Source: Gemmatimonadaceae bacterium
GTDB taxonomy: Bacteria; Gemmatimonadota; Gemmatimonadetes; Gemmatimonadales; Gemmatimonadaceae
NCBI GenBank assembly: GCA_035606695.1
Contig: DATNEW010000019.1
Span: forward strand, 62,001 to 126,000
Length of the DNA stretch: 64,000 nucleotides
Direction of reading: 5' to 3'
The notes under the pieces are model-generated. The model worked only from the letters and a program-made list of their open reading frames with translations, had not been told where the DNA came from and searched no databases. Below are positions 2,216 through 20,907 of this stretch, in pieces (position 1 is the stretch's first letter; every line of letters starts with the position of its first letter). Made by a program: the position numbers and the translations under genes.

Positions 2216-2216
2216 C

Positions 2217-2633
2217 ATGGCGCGCCGCGGCCGTCGTCACCGCTACGAGCTGAATGCGGATGTGAACGTCGTCAGCCTGATCGACGTGATGCTGCTCTTG
2301 CTCGTGATCTTCATGATCACCGCGCCGCTGATGCAGGGCGGCGTCGACATTCAGTTACCGGAAGCGCAGGCCAAGCCGCTCGAGTCGAAGGACGGGATGA
2401 ACATCACCGTCAACAAGGCCGGGCAGATCTCCGTGGACAACGAGTCGATGACGCTGCGCGATTTTCGCGTGCTCTTCAAGACGATCTCGAAGAACCGAAC
2501 GCGAAATGGCGTGTATCTCAGAGCAGACCAGGGCGTCCCCTATGGGACGGTGGTGCAGCTCATGGCGATCATGAATGCGAATGGTGTGACCAACGTCGGG
2601 CTCGTGACCGAGCCGGAGAACATTCCGAAGTGA
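2217..2633 (+). CDS. tolR: TolR-type biopolymer transport protein (ExbD/TolR family)
   Basis: Single-span partner of TolQ with a periplasmic domain. The 138-residue protein has a short basic cytoplasmic tail, a membrane helix at about 18-38 with the conserved proton-carrying aspartate at residue 23 (LIDVMLLLLVIFMIT), and a periplasmic domain ending in the typical VPYGTVVQLMAIMNANGVTNVGLV segment, in which the strand-turn before the last helix is recognisable. The ATG lies one base after the tolQ stop, so translation is probably coupled. Confidence 0.94.
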   Translation: MARRGRRHRYELNADVNVVSLIDVMLLLLVIFMITAPLMQGGVDIQLPEAQAKPLESKDGMNITVNKAGQISVDNESMTLRDFRVLFKTISKNRTRNGVYLRADQGVPYGTVVQLMAIMNANGVTNVGLVTEPENIPK

Positions 2634-3328
2634 GCGCGGTGGCGTCCCCGCGCCTTGCTTCGGGCTTCGCCGTGTCGGTTGTGCTGCACGGCGGGTTAGT
2701 GGCGGTGTTCCTGTTCGCGCACGTGTCGCGGCCGTCGGCGGGACCTCCGCCGTACATGGTGCAGTTGATCGCGGCGCCGGCCGGCGAGCGCGCCATCGGT
2801 GCGGTTCAGCCCGAGGCACCTCCGAAGCCCGCGCCAACGCCTTCGGTGGCGAAGCCGGAGCCGGTGAAACCCAAGCCGGCCGTCCCGAAGCCCAAGCCGG
2901 TTTCGAAGACGCCGCCGAAACGCGCGCCGGATCTCGGCCCAACGGCCAAGCCCACGCAGACGCCGGCGACGGCGGGAGGCGGAGCGACCGGCGGCAAAGG
3001 TTCGGACGTAGCCAACCTCGTCGCGCCGGGGATCGAGTTCGACTATCCCTGGTACATCGACAACATCGCGCGGCGCGTGATCATGCGCTTTGGGAATTTG
3101 AGCTCGAACCTGGTCGCGGAGGTCCGCTTCGTCATCAAGCGCGACGGATCGGTGGATCCCGAGTCGATTCGAATCGTGACCTCTTCGAGGAATTACTCGT
3201 TCGATCAACGGGCCCTTGGCGCCGTCGAGGCGGCGGCGAACGCGCATGAATTCGGCGCGCTGCCGCCGGGGTTTCGTGAAGACATTCTGCCGGTGACGTT
3301 CCGGTTCTCTCCTTCGAGCTATCGATGA
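2630..3328 (+). CDS. TolA/TonB-type energy transducer
   Basis: A periplasm-spanning protein that by position should play the TolA role, linking TolQR to TolB-Pal. The 232 residues comprise an N-terminal membrane anchor (about 11-28), a Pro/Lys-rich stretch with repeated KPxP units (about 60-105) that would span the periplasm, and a C-terminal domain of about 90 residues of the TonB/TolA C-terminal fold (VRFVIKRDGSVDPESIRIV, then SFDQRALGAVEAA). The fold matches TonB C-terminal families more than classical TolA. The GTG start overlaps the tolR stop by 4 nt. Confidence 0.85.
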   Translation: MSAVASPRLASGFAVSVVLHGGLVAVFLFAHVSRPSAGPPPYMVQLIAAPAGERAIGAVQPEAPPKPAPTPSVAKPEPVKPKPAVPKPKPVSKTPPKRAPDLGPTAKPTQTPATAGGGATGGKGSDVANLVAPGIEFDYPWYIDNIARRVIMRFGNLSSNLVAEVRFVIKRDGSVDPESIRIVTSSRNYSFDQRALGAVEAAANAHEFGALPPGFREDILPVTFRFSPSSYR

Positions 3329-4638
3329 TTCGTTACGGACGCGTGGCGGCCGGCGCCGCTGCCTTGATCATTTCGGTTTCACCGCGCCTCGTCGCGCAGG
3401 ATACGACGGGCGGCCGGGGCATCTTCATTGGCGCAACATACGATCCGCTGCACGACAAGCTTGCCGTCGCGGTCCTGCCCGTCGCGGGTGCGTTCGGCGA
3501 TTCGGTGCGCACGATCGTTCAACGCGATCTGGACTACAGCGACCGGTTCACGATCGTGCCGATCGACACCACCGATCCCGGCGCGTTGCGCGGCGCGAAC
3601 GGCCTCGGGCTCAATTATCCGCTGTTCAGCCGCATCGGAACCATCGCGGTGGTGCAGATCACGATGGTCGGCGGCGGCTTGCACGTCTCGCTGCACGACG
3701 TCTCGAAGGGCGCGGTGGTGAACGTCGGCGAGTTCCCGCTCGTTTCGTCGGGTTTGAGTCGCGACTGGCGCATGGGTGTGCACCGCGCCTCGGACGAGAT
3801 CGAACGGTGGATGGCCGGACAGCCGGGCATCGCGGCGACGCGCATTGCGTACATGCGCGGGTCGGCGATTCGCATCGTCGACAGCGACGGTGCGTCGGAG
3901 ATCACGGTGCCGACGGAGGAGAACGGCGCGAGCCCGGCGTGGAATCCGCAAGCGAACATGCTGGCGTATGCGACCTACGGTGCGTCGTCGAGAATCTACC
4001 TGATCGATCTCGCGACGGGGCGTTCGAGATCCCTCATCGGTCCCACCCGCAACGTGAGCTACATCACGCCCGAGTTCATGCCGGACGGCAACACGATCGT
4101 CTTTGGACGCGCCGGCGAGAACGGAACGGATCTCTATTCGATTCCGGTGAGCGGCGGCGATCCGCGGCGCATGACGGTGAGCCGCGGCTTCGAGAGCTCG
4201 AGCCCCGCGCCGAGTCCGGATGGGCGTCGCGTGGCGTACGTGAACAACGGCGGCGGCCATCCGGAGTTGTATATTACGGACGCTGACGGCACGAACAACG
4301 ACATCCTCACCAACTACGATTTCAGCACCAAGGCGTACCGCTCCGATCCGGACTGGTCGCCGGACGGCCGGTTGATCGCGTATCAGGAACTGATGAACGG
4401 CCGATTTCAGTTGCGCATCATCAAGACGACGGGGAGCACCCCGAAGCAGCTGACGAGCGACGGTGCGAACGAGCAGCCGGCGTGGGCGCCGGATTCGCGC
4501 CACCTGGTCTTCACGTCGGACCGGACCGGCGTGCGGCAGCTCTGGGTGCTCGACACCGAATCGCAGCGGTTGCGCCAGCTCACCAAGTCGCCCGGTTCGC
4601 GGTTGGCCGCCTGGTCGCCGCACCTCGCGTCGCCGTGA
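3325..4638 (+). CDS. tolB: Tol-Pal system beta-propeller protein TolB
   Basis: Periplasmic protein that contacts Pal and TolA. The 437 residues begin with a signal peptide likely cleaved near residue 24 (LVA|Q), then an alpha/beta N-terminal domain, and from about residue 170 a six-bladed propeller built of WD40-like/TolB repeats with the recurring pattern SPDGR(R/L)(V/I)AY and PxxW(A/S)PD. It is of the usual length. The start overlaps the preceding stop (ATGA). A 102-bp gap follows before pal. Confidence 0.94.
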   Translation: MIRYGRVAAGAAALIISVSPRLVAQDTTGGRGIFIGATYDPLHDKLAVAVLPVAGAFGDSVRTIVQRDLDYSDRFTIVPIDTTDPGALRGANGLGLNYPLFSRIGTIAVVQITMVGGGLHVSLHDVSKGAVVNVGEFPLVSSGLSRDWRMGVHRASDEIERWMAGQPGIAATRIAYMRGSAIRIVDSDGASEITVPTEENGASPAWNPQANMLAYATYGASSRIYLIDLATGRSRSLIGPTRNVSYITPEFMPDGNTIVFGRAGENGTDLYSIPVSGGDPRRMTVSRGFESSSPAPSPDGRRVAYVNNGGGHPELYITDADGTNNDILTNYDFSTKAYRSDPDWSPDGRLIAYQELMNGRFQLRIIKTTGSTPKQLTSDGANEQPAWAPDSRHLVFTSDRTGVRQLWVLDTESQRLRQLTKSPGSRLAAWSPHLASP

Positions 4639-4740
4639 CCCACCGCGGCGCCGTTATAAGCACCTTGGTATTCAAGAACCTTTAACTCTCTTTCTCATCT
4701 ATCGATTCGCTGTCTTATCTCGCCACACGGGAGACTGATC

Positions 4741-5361
4741 ATGATGCGCACGCACCGGATCGCGGGGCTGACGCTGGCACTGTTGTCCGTGACCATCCTC
4801 GACGCCTGTCACCACAAGGCCGCACCCGCGCCGACGCCAACCCAGGCCTCGATGTCGGGTCCGAACGCCGACAGCGCGCGCCTGGCTCAGGAAGACGCGG
4901 CACGCCGCGCCGCCGCTGATGCCGCGCGCCGCCGGGCCGACTCGATCGCCGCCGCCGAAGCCGCCGCACGCGACGCCGCGAATTCCGCGGGCAGCCTCCG
5001 CTCGGCGCTGACCGCGATGGTGCACTTCGATTACGATCAGTCCGACCTGCGGCCCGAGGATCGCGCGATTCTCGATGCCAAGGTGCCGATCCTGCAGGCC
5101 AACCCGGGCGTGATGATTCGCATCGCCGGCCACACCGACGAACGAGGATCGGACGAGTACAACCTGGCGCTGGGGCAGCGGCGCGCCGCCGCGGCCAAGC
5201 GATATCTCATCGATCACGGTGTCGCGGATTCGCGCATCGAAACCATCAGCTACGGAGAGGAGCGTCCCATCGCGCAGGGATCGGATGAGTCCGCATGGGC
5301 GCAGAATCGCCGCGCGGAATTCGAGATCACCTCGGGTGGCCAAACGCTGCGCAAGCCATGA
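4741..5361 (+). CDS. pal: Peptidoglycan-associated lipoprotein Pal
   Basis: Outer-membrane lipoprotein that binds peptidoglycan. The signal peptide ends in the lipobox LDAC, making Cys23 the lipidated residue. An Ala/Asp/Arg-rich helical linker (about 45-85) follows, then an OmpA-like peptidoglycan-binding domain with VHFDYDQSDLRPE, GHTDERGSDEYN and LGQRRA, the expected diaminopimelate-contact motifs. It is 206 residues, longer than many Pal proteins because of the linker. GGGAG precedes two adjacent ATG codons; the first is taken. The stop overlaps the next start. Confidence 0.95.
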   Translation: MMRTHRIAGLTLALLSVTILDACHHKAAPAPTPTQASMSGPNADSARLAQEDAARRAAADAARRRADSIAAAEAAARDAANSAGSLRSALTAMVHFDYDQSDLRPEDRAILDAKVPILQANPGVMIRIAGHTDERGSDEYNLALGQRRAAAAKRYLIDHGVADSRIETISYGEERPIAQGSDESAWAQNRRAEFEITSGGQTLRKP

Positions 5362-6182
5362 GGAAACTCACCTCGGTCGCGCCGGTTGCCCTGCTCGTGG
5401 CGGCCGGCTGCCTGGCCTCCAAGAGCGACATTCGGTTGTTGCAAGACGAGATGATCGCCACGCGCGCGCAGCTCGCGACCGGGGACACGCTGCATCTCCG
5501 CACGTCCACGTCGCAGCGGGCCGAGATCGCGAATCTGTCGCGGAAAATCGACATGATGATCGACTCGCTGCGATCCACCGCGGCGCGCCTTGCCTCGTTT
5601 CAGGCGACCGCGAGCGGCAACTTCGACGCGCTGAACCAGCAGATGGTGTCCGTGCAGACATTGCTCGGCCAGACGACGCGCAACCTGCAGGAGCAGCGCG
5701 CGCGTCTCGAGGCGCTGGCCGATCAGGCGGCGAACAGTTCGGCGCCGACGCCCGTGTCGCCGAGCTCCGGCGCGACCCTCGGCCGCGACTCGGCGATGAA
5801 CCGCGGACCCGGGCCCGCGACGCTCTATACGACCGCGAACCAGCAACTGGGCGAGGGGGCGTATGCGAGCGCCCGGCGCGGGTTCGAGCAGTTGGTTGCT
5901 TCGTATCCCGACGATCAGCTCGCGCCGCGCGCTATGTTGAAGATCGGCGAATCGTTCGTGGCCGACGGGAACAAGGCGGCGGCGGATTCGGTAAACCAGA
6001 TCATCTACACCCGGTATCCCAAGGCGCCCGAAGCGGCGACGGCGTTGTATCGGCATGGCAGGCAGCTGTGGGATGCGAACAAGAAGTCGGAAGCGCGGCC
6101 GTTCCTGAATCGAGTCATGCGTGATTTTCCGAATTCCGACGAGTACGAGCTGGCCAGAGAACTGCTGAAGAATCGAGGCTAA
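5358..6182 (+). CDS. Tol-Pal system protein CpoB/YbgF-like lipoprotein
   Basis: A 274-residue periplasmic coordinator of Tol-Pal. The start is set at the ATG that overlaps the pal stop (ATGA), because only this start gives a clean signal sequence; an upstream in-frame start would add a charged tail. The signal ends in VAAGC, so the protein may be lipid-anchored at Cys18, unlike the soluble E. coli protein. A coiled-coil region (about 25-130) precedes a Ser/Pro linker and C-terminal TPR repeats (about 155-274) with LYTTANQQLGEGAYASARRG. The family and position agree. Confidence 0.88.
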   Translation: MRKLTSVAPVALLVAAGCLASKSDIRLLQDEMIATRAQLATGDTLHLRTSTSQRAEIANLSRKIDMMIDSLRSTAARLASFQATASGNFDALNQQMVSVQTLLGQTTRNLQEQRARLEALADQAANSSAPTPVSPSSGATLGRDSAMNRGPGPATLYTTANQQLGEGAYASARRGFEQLVASYPDDQLAPRAMLKIGESFVADGNKAAADSVNQIIYTRYPKAPEAATALYRHGRQLWDANKKSEARPFLNRVMRDFPNSDEYELARELLKNRG

Positions 6183-6188
6183 CGCAGC

Positions 6189-7016
6189 GTGGGAATGGCG
6201 ATACCGCGGTCGAATGCCGGAGAGATGCCGTTCCTCGATCACCTCGAGGAACTGCGCTGGCGCATCATTTATTGCCTGGCGGCGCTGCTCGTGTGCATCG
6301 GCGTCGGCTTCTGGCTGTCGTATACGTTCGACGCGGTCGGGCTTCTCGCGCGCCCGGTGCTACCGCTCATTCCCGAGCACAAGCTCGTGTACACGCATCC
6401 GAGCGAAGGCTTCACCGTCATCATGAACGCGGGGATAACGATCGGCCTCGTGTTCGCGTCGCCGGTCATCATCTACCAGACGTGGGCCTTCCTGGCGCCG
6501 GCGCTGCACGCGCACGAGAAACGTGTCGGCCTGGTCGTGCTGTTCTCGGGCGTGTTGCTGTTCATCGCCGGCGCGGCGCTCGCGTATTTCGTCGTCGTGC
6601 CGCTGGCGTTGCCGTGGCTGTTCGGTTTCGCCGGGCCCTCGCTCGTGCCGCTCATCACGGCCGAGGATTATTTCGATTTCATATTCGCGATGGTGTTGAC
6701 GTTCGGGATCAGCTTCGAGCTGCCGATCGTCGTGCTGGCGTTGGCCGCGCTCAACATCGTGACGCCGCAATTTTTGACGAAGTATCGTCGCCACGCGATC
6801 GTGCTCATCGTGATCGCCGGGGCGTTCCTGACGCCGGGCGACATGGTGTGGACGACCATCGCGCTCTCCGTTCCGCTCTATGCGCTCTATGAATTGAGCG
6901 TGCTCGCCGCCACGGTGATCTATCGCCGCAAGCGGCGCCGTCTCGCGCTGGTCTCGAACGATCGCGACGATGACCACGATGACGATGACGTCGGCCGCCC
7001 GAGGGGTCTGACGTGA
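6189..7016 (+). CDS. tatC: Sec-independent protein translocase TatC
   Basis: Receptor subunit for twin-arginine signal peptides in the cytoplasmic membrane. The 275 residues carry the N-terminal signature FLDHLEELRWRI (residues 15-26) and six predicted membrane spans, with the conserved Pro/Glu loop in the second half (FGISFELPIVVLALA). The C-terminal tail is rich in Arg and then Asp/His. GTG at 6189 is taken; ATG at 6195 is an alternative. The partner tatA lies elsewhere, at 21197. It sits between cpoB and lptD in the envelope operon. Confidence 0.95.
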   Translation: MGMAIPRSNAGEMPFLDHLEELRWRIIYCLAALLVCIGVGFWLSYTFDAVGLLARPVLPLIPEHKLVYTHPSEGFTVIMNAGITIGLVFASPVIIYQTWAFLAPALHAHEKRVGLVVLFSGVLLFIAGAALAYFVVVPLALPWLFGFAGPSLVPLITAEDYFDFIFAMVLTFGISFELPIVVLALAALNIVTPQFLTKYRRHAIVLIVIAGAFLTPGDMVWTTIALSVPLYALYELSVLAATVIYRRKRRRLALVSNDRDDDHDDDDVGRPRGLT

Positions 7017-10000
7017 TCCTGAAGTGGCTGAGCGCCGCGCTGTTCACGGTGCTCGCGGTGCTCCCCGTCAGCACGAGTCAAGCGCAGATCATTCCCGGAC
7101 GGCCGCGAAATGCGACGGCCGTCCGGCAGCAGCCGCGCGACACGACTAAGGACTCGACGGCCAAACGCCCGGTGTTTCCGCCACCGGATTCGGTGACGCT
7201 GCGGCTGTTGCAGAAGAAGGGCTATACCACGACGCGGTACGCCGCCGACACGGCGTACTTCGATGCCGATCGCAAGTCGCTCGATCTGCTCGCGGCGCCG
7301 AAACGCCCCGCCGCCGTCGAGCGCGACTCCAATCGCGTCGTCAGCGACAGCGGCATCTACTACACGCAGGCGGATCGGCAGGTGATCACGGGCGGGCACT
7401 ACGTGCTCACGCCGCCGTCGAGCAGCGGCCAGTCGGAAGTGCGCGGCCACGGCTATGGGAAGTACAATCTGGCCGCGCGCTCGCTGCTCATCACGAACGC
7501 CAGTCTCCCCGTGAACAACGGCGAGATCTGGTACGTGAGCTTCGATCGCGCGCGCATCGATCTCGACACCACGGGCGCCAAGAATTCCGTCGCGTACATC
7601 GGCGGCGGCCGGATGACGAGCTGCGATGACTCGATTCCCGATTATCAGTTTCGGTATCACGAAGCCAAGCGCACGGGCGGCAACACCATGGTCGCGCGCC
7701 CGGCGATTCTCTACATCAAGGACATTCCGGTGATGTGGTTTCCGTTCATCTTCAGCGATGAACGGCCGGGGCGGCACAGCGGCATTCTCACGCCGCAGTT
7801 CGGCGTCGGCGACATCATTCGCAGCTCGTCCTCGTACCGCCGCAACGTCGAGCACATCGGCTACTACTGGGCGTTGAGTGATTACGCGGACATGTCCGCG
7901 TGGTTCGACTGGCGCACCGCCGCGGGCGGCGTGCCGGGCGATCCGGGGTGGGTGCGCTACAACGCCGACTGGGATTACAAATGGCTCGACCGATTTCTGG
8001 CCGGGCGCATCGGCCTTGGATACACGCGCCAGCGCGACGCCTCGACCAACCTCGCCGTCTCGTGGAATCACCAGGAAGACTTCGGCCGCAACAACCACCT
8101 GAACACGAACTTCAACTACGTCACCAGCACGACGCTGCAGCGGCAGAACACGTTCAATCCATATTCGGCGCTCGCGACCATCGCGTCGCAGGCGAACTAT
8201 CAATCGAAGATCGGCCCCGCCTCGCTGACGATCGGCGCGACGCGCAAACAATATCCGGGACGCACGCAGGTCGATCAGGGCATTCCGTCGGTCAGCCTCA
8301 CGACGTCGCCCGTGGCGATCGGCGACAAGTTCAGCTGGACGCCGAGCTTCAGCTTCTCGCGCAACGACGTGCTCGGCATGGATCAGCCGGGACTCGGCGC
8401 GTTCACGTACTTCACGCGCGACGTGACGATCAACGGCATCACGACGCCGCGCCTGGACAGCTCCAAGTTCAACGGCCGCAATTCCGCGAACGCGACGATG
8501 AGCTTCGATACGCCCGTGCAGATCTTCGGCTGGGACTTTCGAAACTCGTTTCGATTGAATCAGCAGCGGAACAACTTCCCGCAGCAGTTCACGATCTACG
8601 ACGTCGAGAGCGGAGCGGTCACCGATCAGCGTGTGTACGCCGCGACGTATCGCAGCGACTTCGACTGGGTGCCCGAGTTTCAATTGCCGTCGCTCGGCCA
8701 GAACCGCTTCAATCTGACGCCGAGCTTCAGCCTGCAGAACATCGATCCGGGGCCGCTGATGGTGGCGTCGGAGCGCACCGGCGGGAAGTATGTCTTTCAG
8801 GGCGGCAGTCTGCTCAAGTCCAAGCGCATCAGCCTGGGTGTGAGCGCCTCGCCGACGCTCTATGCGTTTCTGCCCGGCGTCGGCCCGTTCTCGCGCCTGC
8901 GCCACGCGATTCAACCGACGCTCAGCTACTCGTGGGCGCCGTCATCGAACGTGTCGGACGATTACCTCATCGCGACGGGCCGCACCCGGAAAGGCTACCT
9001 CGGCGACCTGAAGCAGAGCGCCGTGACGCTGGGGCTCAACCAGACGTTCGAAGCGAAGATTCGCCGGGACGACGAGGACAGCACGCAGGCCTCGAACGCA
9101 CCGAAGAACGTGAAGTTGTTGAGCATCAACTTCACGCCGATCTCGTACGACTTCGTTCGCCATCAGCACGCGGTCCAGGAAGGCAATCGCAGTCTGCTCA
9201 CCGGATTCACGAGCGACAACTGGGGCTATTCGTTGAGCTCCGATCTTCTGCCCGGCTTCGACTTCAACAGCAATTACTCGCTCTTTCAGGGCAGCACGTT
9301 GAGCGACACGGCGAAGTTCGGCCCGTATCTGACGAATGTCAGCGCCTCCTTCAACATCAGCCGCGACCAGAACCCGTTCGCGGTGTTCACCCGGCTGTTC
9401 GGCAAGGCCGTGCCCGCGCCGCAAAAAGCGCCGACGACGGGCACCGATCAGGTTCGGCCGCGGCCGGACGACGCCATGGCGCAGGCGCTGGCCGCGCAGC
9501 CCGTCGCGGGCAGCTCGCGCGGCGGCGACCGGTTCATCGTGCCGCCGTCGCAAGGCTGGCGCGCCTCGCTGACGTTCACGCGCTCGAGTCCACGGCCGCC
9601 GTCGGGCGGCGTCGGCAGTAACATCATCGACTTCGATCCGCGAGCGCGTTGCGCGGCAACCGTCGGCAACGATCCGTTCCTGCTCGACGCGTGTCTCAAC
9701 AACCTGCGCGCGCAGCCGACCACGGACGTGCCGGTGACGTCGGCGACGGCGGGTGGCGCGTTGTATCGCATTCCGCCGACCACGTCGCTCAACGCGAACA
9801 CCAGCTTCAATCTCACGCCGAAGTGGTCGGCGCAGTGGACGACCACGTACGATCTCGAGCGCCACGAGTTCGCCAGCCACATCGTCCAACTGCAGCGTGA
9901 GTTGCACGATTGGCGCGCGATCTTCGCCTTTACGCAGTCGCCGAACGGCAACTTCGCGTTCAACTTCACGATCGCGCTCAAGGCCGATCCGGACATCAAG

Positions 10001-10042
10001 TTCGACTACAACCGCGCCACCGTTCGCTCGACGGTGCCTTAG
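7013..10042 (+). CDS. lptD: Outer-membrane LPS-assembly protein LptD (Gemmatimonadota/Bacteroidota-type)
   Basis: A 1009-residue outer-membrane beta-barrel expected to insert lipopolysaccharide into the outer leaflet. After a signal peptide (ending near SQAQ) there is an OstA-like beta-jellyroll region (about 50-230; ADRQVITGGHYVLTPP, MTSCDDSIPDYQFRY), the conserved IKDIPVMWFPFIFSDE signature that marks the start of the LptD barrel, and then long alternating beta strands to a C-terminal end in charged/aromatic strands. The two-cysteine pairs of E. coli LptD are not obvious. The GTG start overlaps the tatC stop (GTGA). Confidence 0.88.
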   Translation: MILKWLSAALFTVLAVLPVSTSQAQIIPGRPRNATAVRQQPRDTTKDSTAKRPVFPPPDSVTLRLLQKKGYTTTRYAADTAYFDADRKSLDLLAAPKRPAAVERDSNRVVSDSGIYYTQADRQVITGGHYVLTPPSSSGQSEVRGHGYGKYNLAARSLLITNASLPVNNGEIWYVSFDRARIDLDTTGAKNSVAYIGGGRMTSCDDSIPDYQFRYHEAKRTGGNTMVARPAILYIKDIPVMWFPFIFSDERPGRHSGILTPQFGVGDIIRSSSSYRRNVEHIGYYWALSDYADMSAWFDWRTAAGGVPGDPGWVRYNADWDYKWLDRFLAGRIGLGYTRQRDASTNLAVSWNHQEDFGRNNHLNTNFNYVTSTTLQRQNTFNPYSALATIASQANYQSKIGPASLTIGATRKQYPGRTQVDQGIPSVSLTTSPVAIGDKFSWTPSFSFSRNDVLGMDQPGLGAFTYFTRDVTINGITTPRLDSSKFNGRNSANATMSFDTPVQIFGWDFRNSFRLNQQRNNFPQQFTIYDVESGAVTDQRVYAATYRSDFDWVPEFQLPSLGQNRFNLTPSFSLQNIDPGPLMVASERTGGKYVFQGGSLLKSKRISLGVSASPTLYAFLPGVGPFSRLRHAIQPTLSYSWAPSSNVSDDYLIATGRTRKGYLGDLKQSAVTLGLNQTFEAKIRRDDEDSTQASNAPKNVKLLSINFTPISYDFVRHQHAVQEGNRSLLTGFTSDNWGYSLSSDLLPGFDFNSNYSLFQGSTLSDTAKFGPYLTNVSASFNISRDQNPFAVFTRLFGKAVPAPQKAPTTGTDQVRPRPDDAMAQALAAQPVAGSSRGGDRFIVPPSQGWRASLTFTRSSPRPPSGGVGSNIIDFDPRARCAATVGNDPFLLDACLNNLRAQPTTDVPVTSATAGGALYRIPPTTSLNANTSFNLTPKWSAQWTTTYDLERHEFASHIVQLQRELHDWRAIFAFTQSPNGNFAFNFTIALKADPDIKFDYNRATVRSTVP

Positions 10043-11319: not shown

Positions 11320-11350
11320 GTCGAACCATGTTGGATGGTTTGTGAGCGTT

Positions 11351-11579: not shown

Positions 11580-13094
11580 ATGCCTCCCGAAGTCGTCATC
11601 GACGGCAACTCTCTCACGATCGAGCAGGTCGCCGCCGTCGCGCGCGACCGTGCACGCGTCTCGTTGGCGCCGCAGTCACGACAGCGCGCGCGACTGACGC
11701 GCGGCATCGTCGAGCTGCTCGTCAGCAAACGCGCTGTCGCGTATGGCGTGACGACCGGCTTCGGCAAGTTGTCCGAAGTCGCCATCCCGCCGGAGCGGTT
11801 GGCCGAGCTGCAAGTGAATCTCGTGCGCAGTCACGCGGCGGGCGTCGGCGATCTGCTTCCCGAGCGCGAAGTGCGCGCGATGATGCTTCTCCGCGCGAAC
11901 GTCATTTCCAAGGGCTACTCGGGCGCGCGCATCGAGCTCGCGGAGCTGTTGCTCGAGATGCTCAACGCGGGGCTGCACCCGCCGATTCCCGAGCAGGGCA
12001 GCGTCGGTGCGAGCGGCGATCTCGCGCCGCTCGCGCATCTCGCGCTGTCCGTGATCGGGGAAGGAACGCTCCATCGCGGCGATGAATGCGGGCCCGCCGC
12101 CGACATGCTGCGCGCGGTGAATCTGGAGCCGATGACGCTGGCGACGAAGGAAGGACTGACGCTCATCAACGGCACGCAGGCGCATACGGCGATTGCGTCG
12201 CTGGCGCTCGTCGATGCGCACCGGCTCTGGCGCACCGCGCACATTGCCGGCGCCATGTCGCTCGAAGCGCTGCTCGGCACCCCGGTCGCGTTCGACCCGC
12301 GCATCCACGACGTGCGCGGACAGCTCGGCCAGGCGGCGTCGGCGGCGTATCTGCGCGAGCTGTTGGCGGACAGCGAGATTCGCGAATCGCATCGCGAGAA
12401 CGATCCACGCGTGCAGGATGCGTACGCGCTCCGCTGCATGCCGCAGGTGCACGGCCCGGTGCTCGACGCGTTGGATTTCGCCGCATCGGTCATTGGGCGC
12501 GAGCTGAATGCGGCCACCGACAATCCGCTCGTGTTCGAGAGCGGCGATCTGTTGAGCGGCGGCAATTTCCACGGGCAGTCGGTGGCGATGGCGCTCGACT
12601 TCATGGCGATCGCGCTCACGAACCTCGCGACGATCGCCGAGCGGCGGATCGATCGGCTGGTGCATCCGGATTTGAATCAAGGGCTGCCGCCATTCCTGAC
12701 GCGCGACGCCGGCGTCAACTCCGGGTTCATGATGGCGCAGGTGACCGCGGCGTCGCTGGCGAGCGAGTGCAAGGTGCTGTCGCATCCGGCGAGCGTGGAC
12801 ACCATTCCGACGGACGGCAGCAAGGAAGATGTGGTGCCGATGGCGATGGCGGCCGCGTGGAAGCTCAGGCGCATCGTCAAGAACGTACGGTACGTGCTGG
12901 CGATCGAGTTGATGTGCGGCGCGCAGGGAATCGATTATCGGGCGCCGCTCAAGCCGGGGCGCGGCGTGGCACGCGCGCACGCGGCCGTGCGCGCCGCGGT
13001 GCCGCCGCTCGACCGCGACCGCGTGCTGGCGCCGGACATCGAGCGTCTCGCCGAACTGATTCAGGGCGATGCGCTGTTTCCAAATATTGAATGA
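11580..13094 (+). CDS. hutH: Histidine ammonia-lyase
   Basis: Converts histidine to trans-urocanate and ammonia, first step of histidine degradation. The 504 residues match family length. The self-forming MIO prosthetic group comes from Ala144-Ser145-Gly146 in [15 protein letters not shown]. The N-terminal [10 protein letters not shown] carries the catalytic Tyr loop, and GGNFHGQ and [10 protein letters not shown] are the other active-site stretches. There is no obvious ribosome-binding site; a -10-like box sits 5 nt upstream. hutU follows after a short gap and the pathway continues with hutI. Confidence 0.97.
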
Positions 13095-13110: not shown

Positions 13111-14799
13111 ATGTCCGTATTGACCCGACCCGACCCGACGACCGACCACGCGCCCCGCACGGTTCGCGCGCCGCGCGGCTCGGCGCTCTCCTGCAAAGGC
13201 TGGCAGCAGGAGGCCGCGCTGCGCATGCTGATGAACAACCTCGATCCCGAGGTGGCCGAGCGGCCGCAGGATCTCGTGGTGTATGGCGGAACGGGAAAGG
13301 CGGCGCGCAACTGGGAGGCGTTCGACGCCATCGTCGCGGCGCTGCGCAAGCTCGAGCACGACGAGACGCTGCTCATTCAAAGCGGCAAGCCGGTCGGCGT
13401 GTTTCGCACCCACGCCTGGTCGCCGCGCGTGCTCATCGCCAACAGCAACCTCGTGGGTCGCTGGGCGAACTGGGACTACTTTAGAGAACTCGAACGAGCC
13501 GGCCTGATCATGTACGGCCAGATGACCGCGGGCTCGTGGATCTACATCGGCTCGCAGGGAATCGTGCAGGGCACGTACGAGACGTTTGGCGCCGTGGCCG
13601 ACACGCACTTCAACGGCACGCTCGCCGGCCGCTTCGTGCTCACCGCCGGCCTGGGCGGCATGGGCGGCGCGCAGCCGCTGGCCGCGACGATGAACGACGC
13701 CGCGATCCTGGGGATCGAAGTCGACGAGGCGCGCATCGACAAGCGCATCGAGACCGGCTACTGCGATCGCAAGACGTCGAATCTCGACGAAGCGCTTGGG
13801 TGGATTCGCGAGGCGACCGACGCGAAGCGCCGGCTGTCGGTGGGGCTCGCCGGCAATGCGGCGGAGATCCTGCCGGAGCTGGTACGTCGCGGCGTCACGC
13901 CGGATGTTCTGACCGACCAGACGAGCGCGCACGATACGTTGAATGGATATGTGCCGGCCGGCATGTCGCTCGACGACGCGGCGGCGCTCCGGCGCGGCGA
14001 TCCCAACGAGTACGTTCGCCGCGCGAATGCCTCGATCGTCGAGCACGTGAAGGCGATGCTCGCCATGCAGGCGCGCGGCGCGATCGCGTTCGACTACGGC
14101 AACAACATTCGCACGGTGGCGCTCGACAACGGCGTGGCGAACGCCTTCAACATTCCGGGCTTCGTGCCCGAGTACGTGCGGCCGCTGTTTTGCGCGGGGA
14201 AGGGTCCGTTTCGGTGGGTGGCATTGTCCGGGGACAAGAAAGATCTCGATCGCACCGACGAGCTCGTGCTCGAGCTCTTCCCGCACGACGCGCACTTGCG
14301 GCGCTGGATCGAGATGGCGCGCGAACGCATTCACTTTCAGGGATTGCCGGCGCGCATCTGCTGGCTGGGGCAGGGCGAGCGCGCGAAGTTCGGCGTCGCG
14401 TTGAATGATTTAGTAGCAAAAGGAGAATTAAGCGCACCGATCGTCATCGGCCGCGATCATCTGGACACCGGCAGCGTTGCCTCGCCGTTCCGCGAAACCG
14501 AAGCGATGAAGGATGGCAGCGATGCGATCGCCGACTGGCCGATTCTCAACGCGCTCCTGAACACGGCGAGCGGTGCCTCGTGGGTCTCGTTCCATCACGG
14601 CGGCGGCGTGGGCATCGGGAACTCGCTCCACGCGGGCCAGGTCATCGTCGCCGACGGCACGCCCGAAATGCGCGTGCGTCTCGAGCGCGTGCTCACGAAT
14701 GACCCGGGCATCGGCGTCGCGCGGCATGCGGAGGCGGGCTACGACATCGCCATTCGGACGGCGGAAGAGCAGGGGATTCAGCTGCCGATGAGGGGATGA
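13111..14799 (+). CDS. hutU: Urocanate hydratase
   Basis: Second enzyme of histidine degradation, making 4-imidazolone-5-propionate from urocanate with tightly bound NAD+. ATG 13111 is chosen, giving 562 residues and the normal N-terminus ([20 protein letters not shown]); a start at 13069 would overlap hutH and add a non-conserved stretch. Family marks include [14 protein letters not shown], the NAD-binding [15 protein letters not shown] and [19 protein letters not shown] near the C-terminus. It lies 16 bp after hutH. Confidence 0.97.
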
Positions 14800-14806
14800 C
14801 GGCTCA

Positions 14807-14925
14807 GTCATCCCGAGCGAGCGGAGCCGGGTGCCCTCTGGGCGCATGAGGGACCCCCTTCATTGCGGAGGGCTCCGCCGTCGGGACGGGGATCCTTCGA
14901 CTCGCTGGCGCTCGCTCAGGATGAC
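14807..14925. repeat. Intergenic palindromic repeat, copy B
   Basis: It begins GTCATCCCGAGCGAGCGGAG just after the hutU stop and ends CTCGCTCAGGATGAC about 10 bp before the radical SAM start. The two ends are inverted copies (GTCATCC(C/T)GAGCG against CGCTCAGGATGAC), with GAGGGACCCCC and GGGGATCCTTCGACTCG as the inner matching arms and the core TGCGGAGGGCTCCGCCG. No tandem arm expansion is seen here. Confidence 0.88.
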
Positions 14926-14936
14926 GGCCTCATAAT

Positions 14937-15908
14937 ATGCTCTCCAACGCCTTTCGCCCCTGGCACGTTCCGCTCTTCGTCGGCAAGTACGCGTGGCTGA
15001 AGGCGCGCCGCATGCCCATGCTCGTCAGCTTCGAGGTCACGCAGCGCTGCAACGCACGCTGCGGCTTTTGCGACTACTGGAAGACTGACGCGTCGGCAAA
15101 GACGCAGGAGCTCGAGAGCTTCGCCGAGGCGGCGCGATTCTTCAACCCGATGATCGTGACGTTCACCGGCGGTGAGCCGACGCTCCGCCGCGACCTCGAG
15201 GACCTGGTCGGCGCGGTCTCGCGCGCGATCCCACTCACGTACATCACCCTGCTCACGCACGGCGCGATGCTGACGGCCGATCGCGCACGCGCGCTGCAGG
15301 CGGCCGGCGTCCACCAGCTCAGCATCTCGCTCGACTATCTCGACGAGCGGCACGACCGCGCGCGCGGCATTCCCGGCCTCGTGAACCGCATCTTCGCGGC
15401 GGTGTCCGACATGCGCGACGCCGGTGTCGACAACGTGCGGTTCAACACGGTGATCAAGAACGACAACGTCGATCAGATCATGCCGATCATCCGCCGGGCC
15501 GCGGCGCTCGGCTACGGCGTGAACCTCAGCGTCTACACCGACTCGAAGAACGGGAACCGCGACCACCTGATCGCCGGCGCGCAGCTGCGCGACGTCGAGC
15601 GAGTCATCGCCGACGTGCTCGCGTTCAAGCGCAAGACGCGGCACGCCGTCTCCAACTCCGAGCATTACCTGGAGCAGATCCCGCGCTACCTGCGCGGCGA
15701 GCTTCGCGCCCCGTGCCGGTCGGGCATGCGCACCGTCCACATCGACCCGCTCGGCAACGTGAAACGCTGTCCCGATTTTCCGACGGACTTTCACTGGCGC
15801 GACTTCAAACGCTACAAGCCGATCGACTGCAACGCGTGCTTCTACGCCTGTCGTGGCGAGGCCGAAGCGCCGCTGCGCTTGTCGCGCGCGAAGGACATGC
15901 TGGCATGA
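14937..15908 (+). CDS. Radical SAM protein with C-terminal auxiliary-cluster cysteines, inside the hut operon
   Basis: A 323-residue radical SAM enzyme. The SAM/4Fe-4S motif CxxxCxxC is at Cys38, Cys42 and Cys45 (CNARCGFC), followed by the GGEPTLR SAM-binding segment. Near the C-terminus Cys260, Cys278, Cys298, Cys301 and Cys305 form a SPASM/twitch-like pattern expected to hold an extra iron-sulfur cluster, as in peptide- or small-molecule-modifying members. The substrate is unknown. It lies between hutU and hutI and its stop overlaps the hutI start (ATGA), so the two are probably translated together. No precursor peptide gene is visible nearby. Confidence 0.85.
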   Translation: MLSNAFRPWHVPLFVGKYAWLKARRMPMLVSFEVTQRCNARCGFCDYWKTDASAKTQELESFAEAARFFNPMIVTFTGGEPTLRRDLEDLVGAVSRAIPLTYITLLTHGAMLTADRARALQAAGVHQLSISLDYLDERHDRARGIPGLVNRIFAAVSDMRDAGVDNVRFNTVIKNDNVDQIMPIIRRAAALGYGVNLSVYTDSKNGNRDHLIAGAQLRDVERVIADVLAFKRKTRHAVSNSEHYLEQIPRYLRGELRAPCRSGMRTVHIDPLGNVKRCPDFPTDFHWRDFKRYKPIDCNACFYACRGEAEAPLRLSRAKDMLA

Positions 15909-17188
15909 GCGACACCGCGCCCGCGACGCTGTTCGTCAACGCGTCGCAAGTGGTGACGTGCGCCGGACCGGCCCGCGCGCGGCGCGGCGCGGAAATGAAC
16001 GACGCGGTCGTGCAGACCGGCGTCGCCGTCGCGGTGACCGGCGACCGTATTACCGCGGTCGAACCGCTCCAGAGTTTGCGTTCGCGGTTTCCCCGCGCGA
16101 ATGAATACGACTGCCGCCAGGGCGTCATCACGCCCGGCCTCGTCGACTCACACACGCACGGCATCTTCGGCCGCGCGCGATACGACGAACAGGAGCTGCG
16201 CGCGGCCGGGCTCGACTACATGGAGATCGCGCGGCGCGGCGGCGGCATTCATTCGTCGGTGCGCGATCTGCGCACGCGCAGCGAAGACGCGCTGTTCGAG
16301 CTCGCGCTGCCGCGACTGCGGCGTTTGGCGTCCTTCGGCACCACGACGGTGGAAGTGAAGTCGGGCTACGGCTTGAGCCTCGACGACGAGCTCAAGACGC
16401 TGCGAGTGATCGCACGTCTCGCCGCGGCGCTGCCCATGCGCGTCGTCCCGACGTTCCTCGGCGCACATGAAATCCCGCTCGAACATCGCGAGTCGAGCGC
16501 CAAACGCGCCGCGTACGTCGATCTGCTCGTGCACGAGATGATTCCCGCCGTCGCCGCGCAGCGTCTGGCGCGCTTCGCCGACGTGTTTTGCGAGACCGGC
16601 GTTTACACCGTCGATGAGAGCCGTGTCATTCTTCGTGCGGCGCGGGATGCGGGTCTCTTGCTCAAGCTGCACGCGGACGAGCTCACGTCGTCCGGCGGCG
16701 CGGAGCTCGCCGCTTCGCTCAACGCGACGTCGGCCGATCACCTGGCGGCGGTTTCGGACGGCGGCATCGCCGCGCTCGCGGGGTCGAACACGGTGGCCAC
16801 GCTGCTTCCGGGCACCATGCTTTTCCTGGGCAAGACGAAGCACGCGCCCGCACGGCGATTCATCGACGCCGGCGTGCCGGTCGGCCTCGCGACTGACTTC
16901 AATCCGGGTACGTCGCCGACCCCAAGCCTGCCGCTCGTCCTTACGCTTGGGGTAAGCCAGCTGCACTTGAGCGCCGCGGAAGCGGTCGTCGCCGCCACCG
17001 TAAACGGTGCGGCGGCCCTCGCCCTGGCGGAGGAGGTCGGACAGCTCGCGCCCGGCTTTCGGGCCGACCTCGCGGTGTTCGACATTCGGGACGTTCGCGA
17101 GTTGCCGTACTGGTACGGGGACAACCGCTGCACGGCCACGTTCGTGGGGGGCAAACCTTGTCACTCTAGTGACTTAGAGGTAACTTAA
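15905..17188 (+). CDS. hutI: Imidazolonepropionase
   Basis: Third enzyme of histidine degradation: hydrolyses imidazolonepropionate to N-formimino-glutamate. The 427-residue amidohydrolase uses the ATG that overlaps the preceding stop; the frame is open further upstream but only inside the radical SAM gene. Metal-binding DSHTHGIFG, the GGGIHSSVRD stretch, the KSGYGLSLDDELK helix, HADELTSSGG and ATDFNPGTSP are all typical. No gene for the next step (hutG, hutF or ftcD) lies in the window. The promoter of the next gene overlaps its last codons. Confidence 0.97.
   Translation: MSDTAPATLFVNASQVVTCAGPARARRGAEMNDAVVQTGVAVAVTGDRITAVEPLQSLRSRFPRANEYDCRQGVITPGLVDSHTHGIFGRARYDEQELRAAGLDYMEIARRGGGIHSSVRDLRTRSEDALFELALPRLRRLASFGTTTVEVKSGYGLSLDDELKTLRVIARLAAALPMRVVPTFLGAHEIPLEHRESSAKRAAYVDLLVHEMIPAVAAQRLARFADVFCETGVYTVDESRVILRAARDAGLLLKLHADELTSSGGAELAASLNATSADHLAAVSDGGIAALAGSNTVATLLPGTMLFLGKTKHAPARRFIDAGVPVGLATDFNPGTSPTPSLPLVLTLGVSQLHLSAAEAVVAATVNGAAALALAEEVGQLAPGFRADLAVFDIRDVRELPYWYGDNRCTATFVGGKPCHSSDLEVT
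17158..17186 (+). promoter_or_regulatory. Sigma-70-type promoter for the TPR/polyprenyl synthase/tatA gene group
   Basis: TTGTCA at 17158-17163 and TAACTT at 17181-17186 are separated by 17 bp. Both lie inside the 3' end of hutI. The start would be near 17193, leaving a leader of about 60 nt before the ATG at 17252. Confidence 0.6.
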
Positions 17189-17251
17189 GCCTCCACTTTC
17201 CTCGGTCTTCCGCGGCCGTTTTTGGGCCGTGCGGAGCCCCTGCAGGCGCTG

Positions 17252-19894
17252 ATGTCCAAAGTCGCACAGCTGAAAAAGCAGGCTGCCGAGTTCGAGCAAA
17301 AGAAGCAGATCGACAAGGCGCTGGCGCTTTACGTCAAGCTGCTCGATTCATTCGATGAGTATGCCGACGAGCTCGACGTGGCGCTGTTCAACCGCGTCGG
17401 CGATCTCATGCTGCGCCAGGGAAACGTGGCCGACGCGGTCGACTACTACGAGAAAGCGGTCGACCGTTATGCCGACACCGGCTTTTTCAACAACGCCATC
17501 GCCCTGTGTAACAAGATCCTCCGCCAGTCCCCGGGTCGCGCGAGCGTCTACTACAAGCTCGGCAAGATCAGCGCGCAAAAAGGCTTCAAGGGCGAGGCGA
17601 AGGTCAACTTCCTCGAGTACGCCGACCGCATGCAGAAGGCCGGCAAAACGGACGAAGCGTTCCGCGCGCTGAAGGAGTTCGCGGACCTCTCGCCGGACCA
17701 GGAAGAGATTCGCCTCATGCTCGCCGACCAGCTCACGAAGGCGGAGCGGAAGGACGAAGCGATCGACCAGCTGCAAATTCTCCATGCACGCTACCAGTCC
17801 GAGGGGCGGGGCGACGACGCTGCCTCGACGGCCGATCGCATTCGCGCGCTCGATCCCACCGTGGAGATCAAATCCGACGGCGGGAGCCGGCGCGCGACCA
17901 AGTCGCAGGATCTGATTTTCCTGGACCTGGACGATGCGCCCCGCGCGCGGACGAGTGGCGCGATCCCCGTGCAGTCGGAGCCGGCGCCGCCGCCACGAGC
18001 GCCAACGCCGGCGCGATCGGCGCCGCCGGTCGCGCCGATGACTCCGCCCGCTCCGATCACGCCGGTCGCCGCACAGCCGTCGCTCGACGAACCGTCGCTC
18101 GTCGACGAGCCGATGGAAGCGCCGATCACGCGCGCCGACATCGCGATTCAAGGCACGCCCGCGCACCCGATGGACGCGCCGCTCAGCGGCATCACGCGAA
18201 TTGGTGACGAGGAACGCGCGAACGCGCTCGCGATCGACAAGACGCCGTCGGAATCGCTGCTCGGACTCGAGCAAACGTACCTGGCCGACGCGGACCTCAT
18301 TCGCAGCACGCCGACGTCGTCGCTGCTCGATTTCGAGCCGACGTCGCTGGGCGCCGAAGAGCCGCCGCCCCTCCATCGCTCGTCGGCGCCGACGCACGCC
18401 TCACGCGACGAAGCGCCGATCGAGCGGATCGACGAGACCGGCGAGGAGTCGATCGGCGGCGAACTGCAATTCATCGTTCCTGACGTCGACGACGAACCGA
18501 CGCGCGAAACGCCATCGATCGAGTTCGACGTGTCCGCGCTTACCACGCCGGCCACCTCGCTGCCGCCCGCGCCGCCGCTGCCGACGCCGGCCCACGCCGC
18601 GCTCGATGGTCTGCCGCTGATGGATGTCGACGTGCCGACCGTTCCGACGCCGCCGGCCGCCTCGACGCCGCGCGCCACGACGTCGCTCGAAGAGATCACG
18701 CTCTCCGACGATCTGGGCCTGATCGACGACGAGGCGGATGAATCGGCCGCCGAGCCGCTCGAAGAGCTGGTCGATCTGAATACCGAAAGCCTCACGATCG
18801 ACGACGAGCCGATGCCGACGCCGTCGGTGGCCCGCCGCTCGACGATGGTCGCGATGCACTCGGTCGAGATTTTGCACGCCAGCGTCGAGGGCGAGCCGGA
18901 GAATTGGTCGCTGCGCCGCGAGCTTGCCGAGGCGATGCTCGAGGCGGGCGACCGCGACGGCGGTATTAAAGAACTCGAAACGGCGATGTCCGGTGCGGAG
19001 CGCGGCGGCGACCTGGAGTTGGCGATGTCGCTCGCCGAAGAGCTCGCGCGGCTCGAGCCGGCCGCGGTACGCCATCACCAGAAGCGCGTCGAATACGCGT
19101 TCCGGAAGAACGACCGCCCGCGACTGATCGAAGCCTATCTCTCGCTCGGCGGCTCGCTGGTGGACGCGGAGCAGGGCGACAAGGCGCGGACCGTGTATCA
19201 ACGGGTGCTCGATCTGGCGCCTGACGAGCTCCGCGCGCGCGCCGCGCTCGATGCGCTGCAGGGCCCGGAGCCCGAGCCGGAGCCACAACCGCGCGCGGCA
19301 GGTCCTGGTGCCCGCCGCCCATCCGTCGGCGTCCAGGCGCCGCAGGAACCCGCGCCCGCCGCGTCGAACAGCTTCGTCAACCTGGGCGATTGGCTGCGCG
19401 ACGACGAGCAGCCGAAGGATACGCGGATGGTCGTCGCCGAGCAGGAGCCGACGGGAGACGAGGACGCCGACTTCCAGGACATGCTGCGGAAGTTCAAGCA
19501 GGGTGTCGCCGAGAACGTCGACGCCGAGGATTACCAGAGTCACTACGATCTGGCGATCGCCTTCAAGGAGATGGGCCTGCTCGATGAAGCGATCGCGGAA
19601 TTTCAGAAGGCGCTGGGCAGTCCTACCAACAGGCTGCCCACGTACGAAGCGTTGGGGCAGTGCTTTCTGGAAAAGGGGCAGCCGCGGCTGGCGTCGTCGA
19701 TCCTGTCCCGCGGGTTGAACGAGAAGGCGAGCGAAGACCAACTGGTCGGCGTGTTGTATCTTCTGGGGCGTGCGGCGGAGGAGCAGGGGAATGCCGCCGA
19801 AGCGCTGACGTACTATCAACGGGTATTCGTGCTGGACATTCAATTCAGGGACATCGCCGAGCGCATGAACGAAGTCGAACGGGCGGCGCGATGA
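17252..19894 (+). CDS. Large TPR protein with a disordered acidic/proline-rich middle
   Basis: An 880-residue protein of unknown function with no signal peptide. TPR-type helical repeats occupy about 1-190 (KQIDKALALYVKLLDSF, ADAVDYYEKAVDRY, NAIALCNKILRQSP). About residues 215-530 are a low-complexity Ala/Pro/Asp/Glu linker with short recurring acidic motifs (LDEPSLVDEP, LIDDEADES). Further TPRs fill about 530-690 and 755-880 (DLAIAFKEMGLLDEAIAEFQKAL). A TTG at 17222 is an alternative start but ATG 17252 is preferred. It overlaps the next start by 4 nt and has a similar layout to the protein at 23819. A scaffold or assembly role is plausible, but no specific partner is indicated. Confidence 0.8.
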   Translation: MSKVAQLKKQAAEFEQKKQIDKALALYVKLLDSFDEYADELDVALFNRVGDLMLRQGNVADAVDYYEKAVDRYADTGFFNNAIALCNKILRQSPGRASVYYKLGKISAQKGFKGEAKVNFLEYADRMQKAGKTDEAFRALKEFADLSPDQEEIRLMLADQLTKAERKDEAIDQLQILHARYQSEGRGDDAASTADRIRALDPTVEIKSDGGSRRATKSQDLIFLDLDDAPRARTSGAIPVQSEPAPPPRAPTPARSAPPVAPMTPPAPITPVAAQPSLDEPSLVDEPMEAPITRADIAIQGTPAHPMDAPLSGITRIGDEERANALAIDKTPSESLLGLEQTYLADADLIRSTPTSSLLDFEPTSLGAEEPPPLHRSSAPTHASRDEAPIERIDETGEESIGGELQFIVPDVDDEPTRETPSIEFDVSALTTPATSLPPAPPLPTPAHAALDGLPLMDVDVPTVPTPPAASTPRATTSLEEITLSDDLGLIDDEADESAAEPLEELVDLNTESLTIDDEPMPTPSVARRSTMVAMHSVEILHASVEGEPENWSLRRELAEAMLEAGDRDGGIKELETAMSGAERGGDLELAMSLAEELARLEPAAVRHHQKRVEYAFRKNDRPRLIEAYLSLGGSLVDAEQGDKARTVYQRVLDLAPDELRARAALDALQGPEPEPEPQPRAAGPGARRPSVGVQAPQEPAPAASNSFVNLGDWLRDDEQPKDTRMVVAEQEPTGDEDADFQDMLRKFKQGVAENVDAEDYQSHYDLAIAFKEMGLLDEAIAEFQKALGSPTNRLPTYEALGQCFLEKGQPRLASSILSRGLNEKASEDQLVGVLYLLGRAAEEQGNAAEALTYYQRVFVLDIQFRDIAERMNEVERAAR

Positions 19895-20907
19895 GCGGCC
19901 TGGTACCCCCCGTCGTTCGCGTGCGCACGCCGGCCACGAGCGCGCTGCGCGACATCCAGGCGCCGGTGCGCGCCGGGTTGGAGGACGTCGTCGTCGAGAT
20001 GCATCACATCGTGACGCACGAGCTGCCGCTGATCCAGGACGTGGCGGGCCACCTGCTGCAGATGCGCGGCAAGATGTTTCGCCCGACGCTGGCGTTGCTC
20101 GCCTCGCAGGCAACGGGCACGCCGGAGCCGCGGGTGAAGACGCTCGCCGCGGTGGTGGAGCTCATGCACCTCGCGACGCTGGTGCACGACGACTCGGTCG
20201 ATCATTCGGTGCTGCGCCGCGGGCTGCCGACGATCAACGCGCTGTTCAGCCATCAGGTCTCCGTGATCATGGGAGACTTCTTATATTCAAGAGCGCTAAC
20301 AGCGCTCGTCGGCATGGCCGATCTGGCGATCATCAAGATCGTCACGGACGTCGCCAACGAGCTGACGATCGGCGAAATGCGCCAGCTCGGCGCCGTGGAC
20401 GCGCTCGAGTTCACCGAGGCGCAGTACTACGATCTGATTCGCGCCAAGACGGCGTCGCTGATCGCGTGCGCCTGCGAGAGCGGCGCGTTGTGCGGCGCCG
20501 CCGAGTTCCGCGAGCCGTTGGCGCGCTACGGCGATCGTCTCGGCATGGCGTTCCAGATCGCCGACGACATTCTGGACTACACCGAGGATCAGTCGGTGAC
20601 GGGAAAGCCGAGCGGCCTCGATCTCCGCGAGCACAAAGTCACGCTGCCGCTGATCGCGGCGCTCCCGCGCGTCTCGGCGGCTGGTCGCAAGCGCATCGAG
20701 GCGCTGTTCGCGACGGAGAATCCGGACGACGGCGTGCTGGCCGATGTGGTCGCCATCGTCCACGAGGCCGGTGGTATCGAGTACGCGCGCCAGCGGGGTG
20801 AAGCGCTGGCGCATGACGCGGAGCAGGCATTGCGCGTCCTTCCTGAAAGCCCTGTCCGGTCTTCGCTGACGGACGCGATTGCGTACGTCATGGAGCGACG
20901 GTCTTAA
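19891..20907 (+). CDS. Trans-polyprenyl diphosphate synthase
   Basis: Makes long-chain prenyl diphosphates from isopentenyl diphosphate, probably the side chain of the respiratory quinone. ATG 19891 overlapping the TPR gene stop gives 338 residues, the normal size. The first aspartate-rich motif is DDSVD (LVHDDSVDHS) and the second DDILD (QIADDILDYTED); GKMFRPTLALLAS is the usual N-terminal substrate-binding stretch. The product chain length cannot be called with certainty from sequence. Confidence 0.92.
   Translation: MSGLVPPVVRVRTPATSALRDIQAPVRAGLEDVVVEMHHIVTHELPLIQDVAGHLLQMRGKMFRPTLALLASQATGTPEPRVKTLAAVVELMHLATLVHDDSVDHSVLRRGLPTINALFSHQVSVIMGDFLYSRALTALVGMADLAIIKIVTDVANELTIGEMRQLGAVDALEFTEAQYYDLIRAKTASLIACACESGALCGAAEFREPLARYGDRLGMAFQIADDILDYTEDQSVTGKPSGLDLREHKVTLPLIAALPRVSAAGRKRIEALFATENPDDGVLADVVAIVHEAGGIEYARQRGEALAHDAEQALRVLPESPVRSSLTDAIAYVMERRS

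Follow-up and report, generated by a model that had tools for sequence, protein, structure and literature searches.

The radical SAM gene (rSAM) that lies within a histidine-degradation (hut) operon of this Gemmatimonadaceae bacterium belongs to an arrangement that is real and well conserved, but the obvious interpretation of that arrangement, in terms of hut function, is probably wrong. The gene stays in place and under selection where the hut genes have left, so its product is probably not serving histidine breakdown. The reading favoured here, with moderate confidence, is that rSAM encodes an enzyme of an uncharacterised radical SAM subfamily with a role in envelope lipids that is independent of histidine degradation. 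The suggestion comes from genomic context, in that the constant neighbours of the gene point to the lipids of the outer membrane.

In the window, meaning the whole stretch of 64,000 nucleotides that was analysed, the genes run in the order hutH-hutU-rSAM-hutI, every one of them on the plus strand (Table 1), and the stop codon of rSAM (TGA, 15906-15908) overlaps the start codon of hutI (ATG, 15905-15907) in the sequence ATGA, just as the initial annotation had described. This 4-base overlap exceeds chance and recurs: at 46 of 103 rSAM-hutI junctions, the stop of rSAM is overlapped in the same manner by a start codon in frame. The gap between hutU and rSAM is 137 nt in the window (14800-14936), against a median of 7 nt among 105 distinct copies. 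Taken alone, such tight junctions favour co-transcription and would be in keeping with a function in hut. At two loci with long stretches between rSAM and hutI (L089 and L101), none of the ORFs listed was informative. Interspersed repeats with a TCATCCCGAGCG-like core were seen in the window at 11350-11540, 29302-29333, 47043-47185 and 50451-50640, and the hutU-rSAM gap resembles these repeats by eye but is absent from the listing of the repeat search, which gave no clue to the function of rSAM in the window.

Table 1. Features of the window that bear on the rSAM gene and its surroundings.
Feature	Position	Strand	Basis or remark
ExbB/TolQ, ExbD/TolR, TonB/TolA-like, PD40 (TolB-like), OmpA/Pal, TPR (YbgF-like), TatC	1451..7016	+	Pfam
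LptD-family outer-membrane protein	7013..10042	+	immediately upstream of rSAM where hut left the block
hutH, histidine ammonia-lyase	11580..13094	+	TIGR01225 above cut-off
hutU, urocanase	about 13111..14799 (ORF opens at 13069)	+	TIGR01228 above cut-off
rSAM gene, twitch/SPASM-like C-terminus, 323 aa	14937..15908	+	ORF, Pfam, alignment, model
CxxxCxxC motif (C38, C42, C45)	15048..15071	+	invariant in 40/40 rows
Five C-terminal cysteines (C260, C278, C298, C301, C305)	15714..15851	+	invariant in 40/40 rows
hutI, imidazolonepropionase	15905..17188	+	TIGR01224 above cut-off
TPR protein, constant downstream partner	17222..19894	+	
Polyprenyl synthetase, constant downstream partner	19891..20907	+	start inferred from ATGA overlap with the TPR gene

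The product of rSAM matches the Pfam Radical_SAM domain (PF04055) with 84.4 bits (1.3e-23; cut-off 29.5) and carries the CxxxCxxC motif, so that both features by which the radical SAM superfamily is recognised are present. In this superfamily, the motif binds the [4Fe-4S] cluster that cleaves SAM. The five C-terminal cysteines stand at exactly the positions first reported for them, with the spacing C-x12-G-x4-C ... C-x2-C-x3-C, and all eight cysteines are invariant in an alignment of 40 sequences (A1) that includes two deltaproteobacterial rows at 38% identity, the five C-terminal ones also being invariant in a second alignment (A2) of 14 rows, six of which are outside homologues. The initial annotation had proposed that these residues hold an auxiliary iron-sulfur cluster; their invariance is in keeping with this, and judging from the sequence they are likely to be its ligands. 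SPASM domains follow the pattern C-x9-15-G-x4-C, then C-x2-C-x5-C-x3-C, then a final C, and hold two auxiliary clusters. The first half of this pattern fits rSAM (C260-x12-G-x4-C278), but the second half is reduced to C298-x2-C301-x3-C305 with no further cysteine; since the five cysteines are fewer than in the full SPASM pattern, there is probably one auxiliary cluster. The cysteine spacing of the tail is more suggestive of a shortened, twitch-like domain than of a full SPASM one. The C-terminal domain of SkfB is termed twitch in PMC8326336, and the five invariant cysteines of rSAM go together with an SkfB-like fold in the predicted model, which shows no cluster.

The predicted structure, a confident model (mean pLDDT 90.9, pTM 0.89), has one short helix, followed by the radical SAM barrel and then the tail that holds the five cysteines. 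An amphipathic, membrane-binding N-terminal helix was sought in this model and none was seen, the most hydrophobic helix (residues 10-23) having a low moment. The copy in the window sits on an end branch of 0.57, compared with a median of 0.12, which places it among the two longest in the family, and its eight cysteines are intact.

The gene was found in 91 of the 99 sampled Gemmatimonadaceae genomes, a count of strong matches only, with a broader tally of 95 taking in distant paralogues. It lies in a block of genes (1451-23622 in the window) that is common to three families of the order and in which the catabolic hut genes stand among envelope genes. The upstream part comprises genes for ExbB/TolQ, ExbD/TolR, TonB-like, PD40, OmpA/Pal, TPR, TatC and LptD proteins, the Tol-Pal names within 1451..7016 being given from gene order. 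Between LptD and hutH is an ORF that resembles a lipoprotein and has no Pfam match, and the downstream part runs through hutH, hutU, rSAM and hutI to genes for TPR, polyprenyl synthetase, DUF4321, TatA and PpiD-like proteins. Within this block, hut is the least faithful neighbour of rSAM. The lptD gene was found upstream in 76 of 76 distinct copies and the TPR gene downstream in 93 of 93, with polyprenyl synthase nearby in 73/73, DUF4321 in 69/69, PpiD in 57/57, TatC in 59/62 and TatA in 67/68, compared with 105/120 for hutU, 103/119 for hutI and 86/98 for hutH; where flanks were short, a copy entered the count only if matched, which inflates the fractions and leaves the zero misses unaffected. 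Because the whole block is syntenic, adjacency to hut is a poor test of function, and for the same reason, together with the wide distribution of Lpt, Tol and Tat genes, the proximity of LptD also counts for little by itself.

The sister families show the block without rSAM. In all 10 loci read from two of them (f2 and f3, five each), hutU and hutI lie in the same block without rSAM, and the gaps between the hutU and hutI matches are at most about 300 nt; the loci were picked for strong hutU matches, with f2 genomes that gave weaker ones left out. In the five f3 loci (L212-L216), hutU-hutI stood in the block with no hutH detected beside them (5/5). Among 201 genomes of the order and 298 of the phylum, copies of rSAM with at least 58% identity occurred only in the Gemmatimonadaceae, and in the rest of the phylum only relatives of 25-35% identity reached E 1e-25. 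The simplest history is that rSAM was inserted between hutU and hutI in the Gemmatimonadaceae stem, the alternative being that it was lost in the sister families rather than gained here.

On a tree of 124 distinct rSAM copies, made by a quick method and with long branches noted, the association with hut switches at least six times, rSAM keeping its place in the block throughout, and the direction of these changes rests on the sister families, as the tree count alone gives none. In genus g21, hutH still adjoins rSAM. Fourteen distinct copies have no hut neighbour at all, and 13 of these begin -1 to 45 nt downstream of lptD, the remaining one (L124) 1220 nt downstream. The dN/dS values among hut-free copies were 0.025-0.098 (six hand-picked pairs), alongside 0.024-0.068 for hut-linked copies (five pairs) and 0.052 and 0.083 for copies with hutH only (two pairs), all by a simple method at dS of 0.37-1.54. 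The low values in hut-free copies indicate that rSAM is maintained by purifying selection without hut neighbours.

Outside the phylum, homologues of about 40% identity were found, and members of the close subfamily are few in the other sampled phylum (Desulfobacterota, judging by the Desulfoferrobacter genome that contains L111), occurring in 6 of 198 genomes by one protein query and in 7 of 395 by profile, with both tallies including G429, whose C-terminus is of a different type. In all seven outside loci that were read, a gene concerned with the synthesis or export of outer-membrane lipids lies beside rSAM or within one ORF of it. One locus has the order pyrG-rSAM-kdsA-kdsC-lptC-lptA-lptB-rpoN (L110), and another has LPG_synthase_TM, OEP, MlaC and rSAM, followed on the opposite strand by CDP-alcohol phosphatidyltransferase and YhdP (L111). 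In L175, L177 and L243, rSAM is directly divergent from HpnA-HpnH, as it is in L176 with one coiled-coil ORF between; an HpnN-like transporter and an outer-membrane efflux protein follow downstream of rSAM in L175 and L243, and in L178 rSAM stands between an HpnN-like transporter, which immediately precedes it, and LPG_synthase_TM. These HpnN-like proteins score 342-571, under the family cut-off of 752. Genes of other kinds are also present, namely threonine synthase and carbonic anhydrase downstream of rSAM in L176 (with homologues of both in L177), SAM decarboxylase, deoxyhypusine-synthase-type and arginase-type (polyamine-type) genes upstream in L178, and superoxide dismutase near rSAM in L175. 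Similar neighbour matches were lacking from a control set of 20 loci that hold other radical SAM relatives, in a comparison that is partly circular, as the queries were taken from the seven outside loci, and in which the controls came mostly from another phylum, their neighbours were not annotated and several loci were short. The matches that did arise were to HpnH at 25-28% identity in 4/20, always on a radical SAM gene, and to lptB at 27-30% identity in 5/20, as expected for any ABC ATPase.

Under the favoured reading of an envelope-lipid role, a pre-existing hut operon, itself lying within a block for outer-membrane biogenesis, would have received rSAM, or become the place where it was fixed, in the Gemmatimonadaceae stem. 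The C38/C42/C45 cluster of the enzyme would be the source of a 5'-deoxyadenosyl radical, the C-terminal cysteines would presumably hold an auxiliary Fe-S cluster, and the target would most likely be an outer-membrane lipid or glycolipid, or the precursor of one, that is handled by the adjoining transport machinery, which would be LptD here and Lpt, Mla/YhdP or HpnN-like elsewhere. A wider form of the proposal is tentative and rather doubtful: that a subfamily nearly universal in the Gemmatimonadaceae and patchy in another phylum modifies outer-membrane-bound lipids or glycolipids by radical chemistry, beside whichever transporter is present (LptD, LptABC, Mla/YhdP or HpnN-like). Hopanoid modification was considered for the genome of the window and rejected, as squalene-hopene cyclase was found in 3 of 59 family genomes, the window's own not being among them. 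Hopanoids are thus not the substrate across the Gemmatimonadaceae, which makes one substrate for the whole subfamily doubtful.

The chief alternative is that rSAM is a housekeeping enzyme, unrelated to both hut and the envelope and held in place by synteny only. Where synteny is this general, location carries little functional information, and the hut genes themselves sit in the block without any known envelope role. Such an enzyme would nevertheless make a coincidence of the envelope-lipid contexts in another phylum (7/7 loci), and the short distance to lptD once hut is gone, seen in 13 of 14 copies, speaks against it as well; we judge this alternative unlikely. A related thought in the initial annotation, that rSAM is simply a passenger, agrees with the position of the gene but less well with its conservation in 91 of 99 family genomes beside the constant neighbours LptD, TPR and polyprenyl synthase.

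The other possibilities raised at the outset were that a Hut protein is modified by rSAM, or that the enzyme works on an imidazole intermediate, in which case the operon would reflect function, and the spacing of the genes described above has its counterpart in their distribution. In 76 of the 99 family genomes rSAM adjoins hut genes: it lies within 3 kb of hutU in 74, and two more (G074 and G093), in which a contig edge is reached and hutI still adjoins rSAM, complete the 76. Hut genes also stood beside rSAM in 74 of 79 loci retrieved by peptide patterns, the collection of 84,980 species having been scanned by exact patterns only, with one other phylum sampled. The arrangement is accordingly not peculiar to one genome, nor do homologues lie mostly away from hut, two outcomes that had been named as reasons to abandon the idea. 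Co-occurrence in the family is almost complete, with urocanase somewhere in 90 of 91 rSAM-bearing genomes and not detected in an 88%-complete assembly (G047), but it is looser outside the family: hutU was absent from 4 of the 6 outside genomes with the close subfamily (G360, G398, G434 and G467) and present elsewhere in the other two (G361 and G550), the completeness of the six not being given.

The genomes in which the linkage is broken tell against a hut role. In 15 genomes rSAM lies away from hutU and hutI, and 14 of these carry hutU elsewhere; in those 14 of the 99 (G003, G021, G027, G030, G031, G036, G055, G059, G068, G076, G086, G088, G090 and G097) rSAM has been kept in the block. All 14 were viewed as loci, with G036 equated to L056 by its matching contig end, and three of the contigs (those of G027, G036 and G097) end shortly beyond rSAM, which hides the hutI side. 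The separate hut sets of G031 and G003 (L138 and L139) have a hutU of 61% identity and a hutI of 47% and 39% identity, with no rSAM adjoining, which suggests that the hut set was swapped for a different one in these genomes. Conversely, one genome with an estimated completeness of 100% (G011) has hutH-hutU-hutI intact and no close rSAM. Other cases of seeming absence involve contig ends: in G085 hutU was found without rSAM, but the contig with the block ends before the site, and G217, where rSAM alone seems to be absent, likewise ends at a contig edge. In six of the 99 genomes neither rSAM nor hutU was found; the contig ends at or before the site in three of them (G012, G083 and G072), in a fourth (G007) all that was seen of the polyprenyl synthase gene is a fragment where a contig begins, and the last two (G008 and G057) yielded no polyprenyl synthase gene. 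Two further observations concern assemblies. G014 has two extra rSAM copies on small contigs (L131 and L132), with a hutH-rSAM layout like that of genus g21, and is possibly a mixed bin; L034 and L069, which show the family gene order under Vicinamibacterales and Kuenenia record titles, are probably misassigned contigs.

A component of the hut pathway should keep its linkage when hut moves and should be lacking where hut is lacking, and rSAM does neither. Selection on rSAM persists after hut has left, G011 and all 10 sister-family loci read have hut but no rSAM, and hut is less faithfully linked to rSAM than lptD, TPR and polyprenyl synthase are. On these grounds, and in view of the outside genomes that have no hutU, neither modification of a Hut protein nor action on an imidazole intermediate is supported. 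To our knowledge, the established steps of histidine degradation require no radical SAM enzyme, and a role in that pathway is now considered quite improbable.

Comparison with known radical SAM systems placed rSAM in no named family. No NCBIfam equivalog fitted; the best score, 92.1 bits over residues 21-275, was to the PTO1314 family radical SAM protein (TIGR03961), whose cut-off is 306, so rSAM is not a member, and MoaA (TIGR02666) gave 88.8 bits against a cut-off of 284.05. HpnH, the adenosyl-hopene transferase (TIGR03470), is similar in length and distantly similar in sequence (58.8 bits), but rSAM falls far under the cut-off of 225.05, and the true HpnH is a separate gene in the four outside loci where rSAM lies near HpnA-HpnH. 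The nearest solved fold to the model is BlsE (Z 23.1, rmsd 3.1, 271 residues), tied with SkfB (Z 22.3, rmsd 3.3, 270 residues), followed by SuiB (Z 20.7), DesII (20.5) and MoaA (19.9); in all five, the barrel and the C-terminal part align over 260-275 residues at 16-21% identity. The substrates of this group are sugars, peptides and GTP, and, as they vary so widely, the fold gives a class of chemistry and not the substrate of rSAM. That rSAM is a RiPP, peptide or protein maturase, with a short unannotated peptide, LptD or another block protein as its target, is very improbable: the nearest folds include SkfB and SuiB, and PMC8326336 describes SPASM or twitch tails as frequent in peptide-modifying radical SAM enzymes, but in the predicted model a single short helix precedes the first strand, which starts at residue 29, and this would leave no room for an N-terminal RRE domain, and the constant neighbours are long proteins together with the small DUF4321 and TatA, in a count that leaves out short ORFs.

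Literature searches on radical SAM enzymes with lptD in Gemmatimonads found no paper, and those that combined radical SAM with hut, hopanoid, LPS, gene order or SPASM/twitch found nothing on this gene, judged by titles and the openings of abstracts. For the biology of the family, these results weaken the tempting lead of a radical step in histidine catabolism, and they illustrate that in a syntenic region strict adjacency, even a start/stop overlap, can last across a whole family and yet carry no clear functional meaning. What emerges in its place is an unnamed radical SAM subfamily that is found repeatedly beside the machinery of outer-membrane lipid export. If the link to lipids is true, a phylum common in soil would have a core modification of its envelope that has so far gone undescribed.
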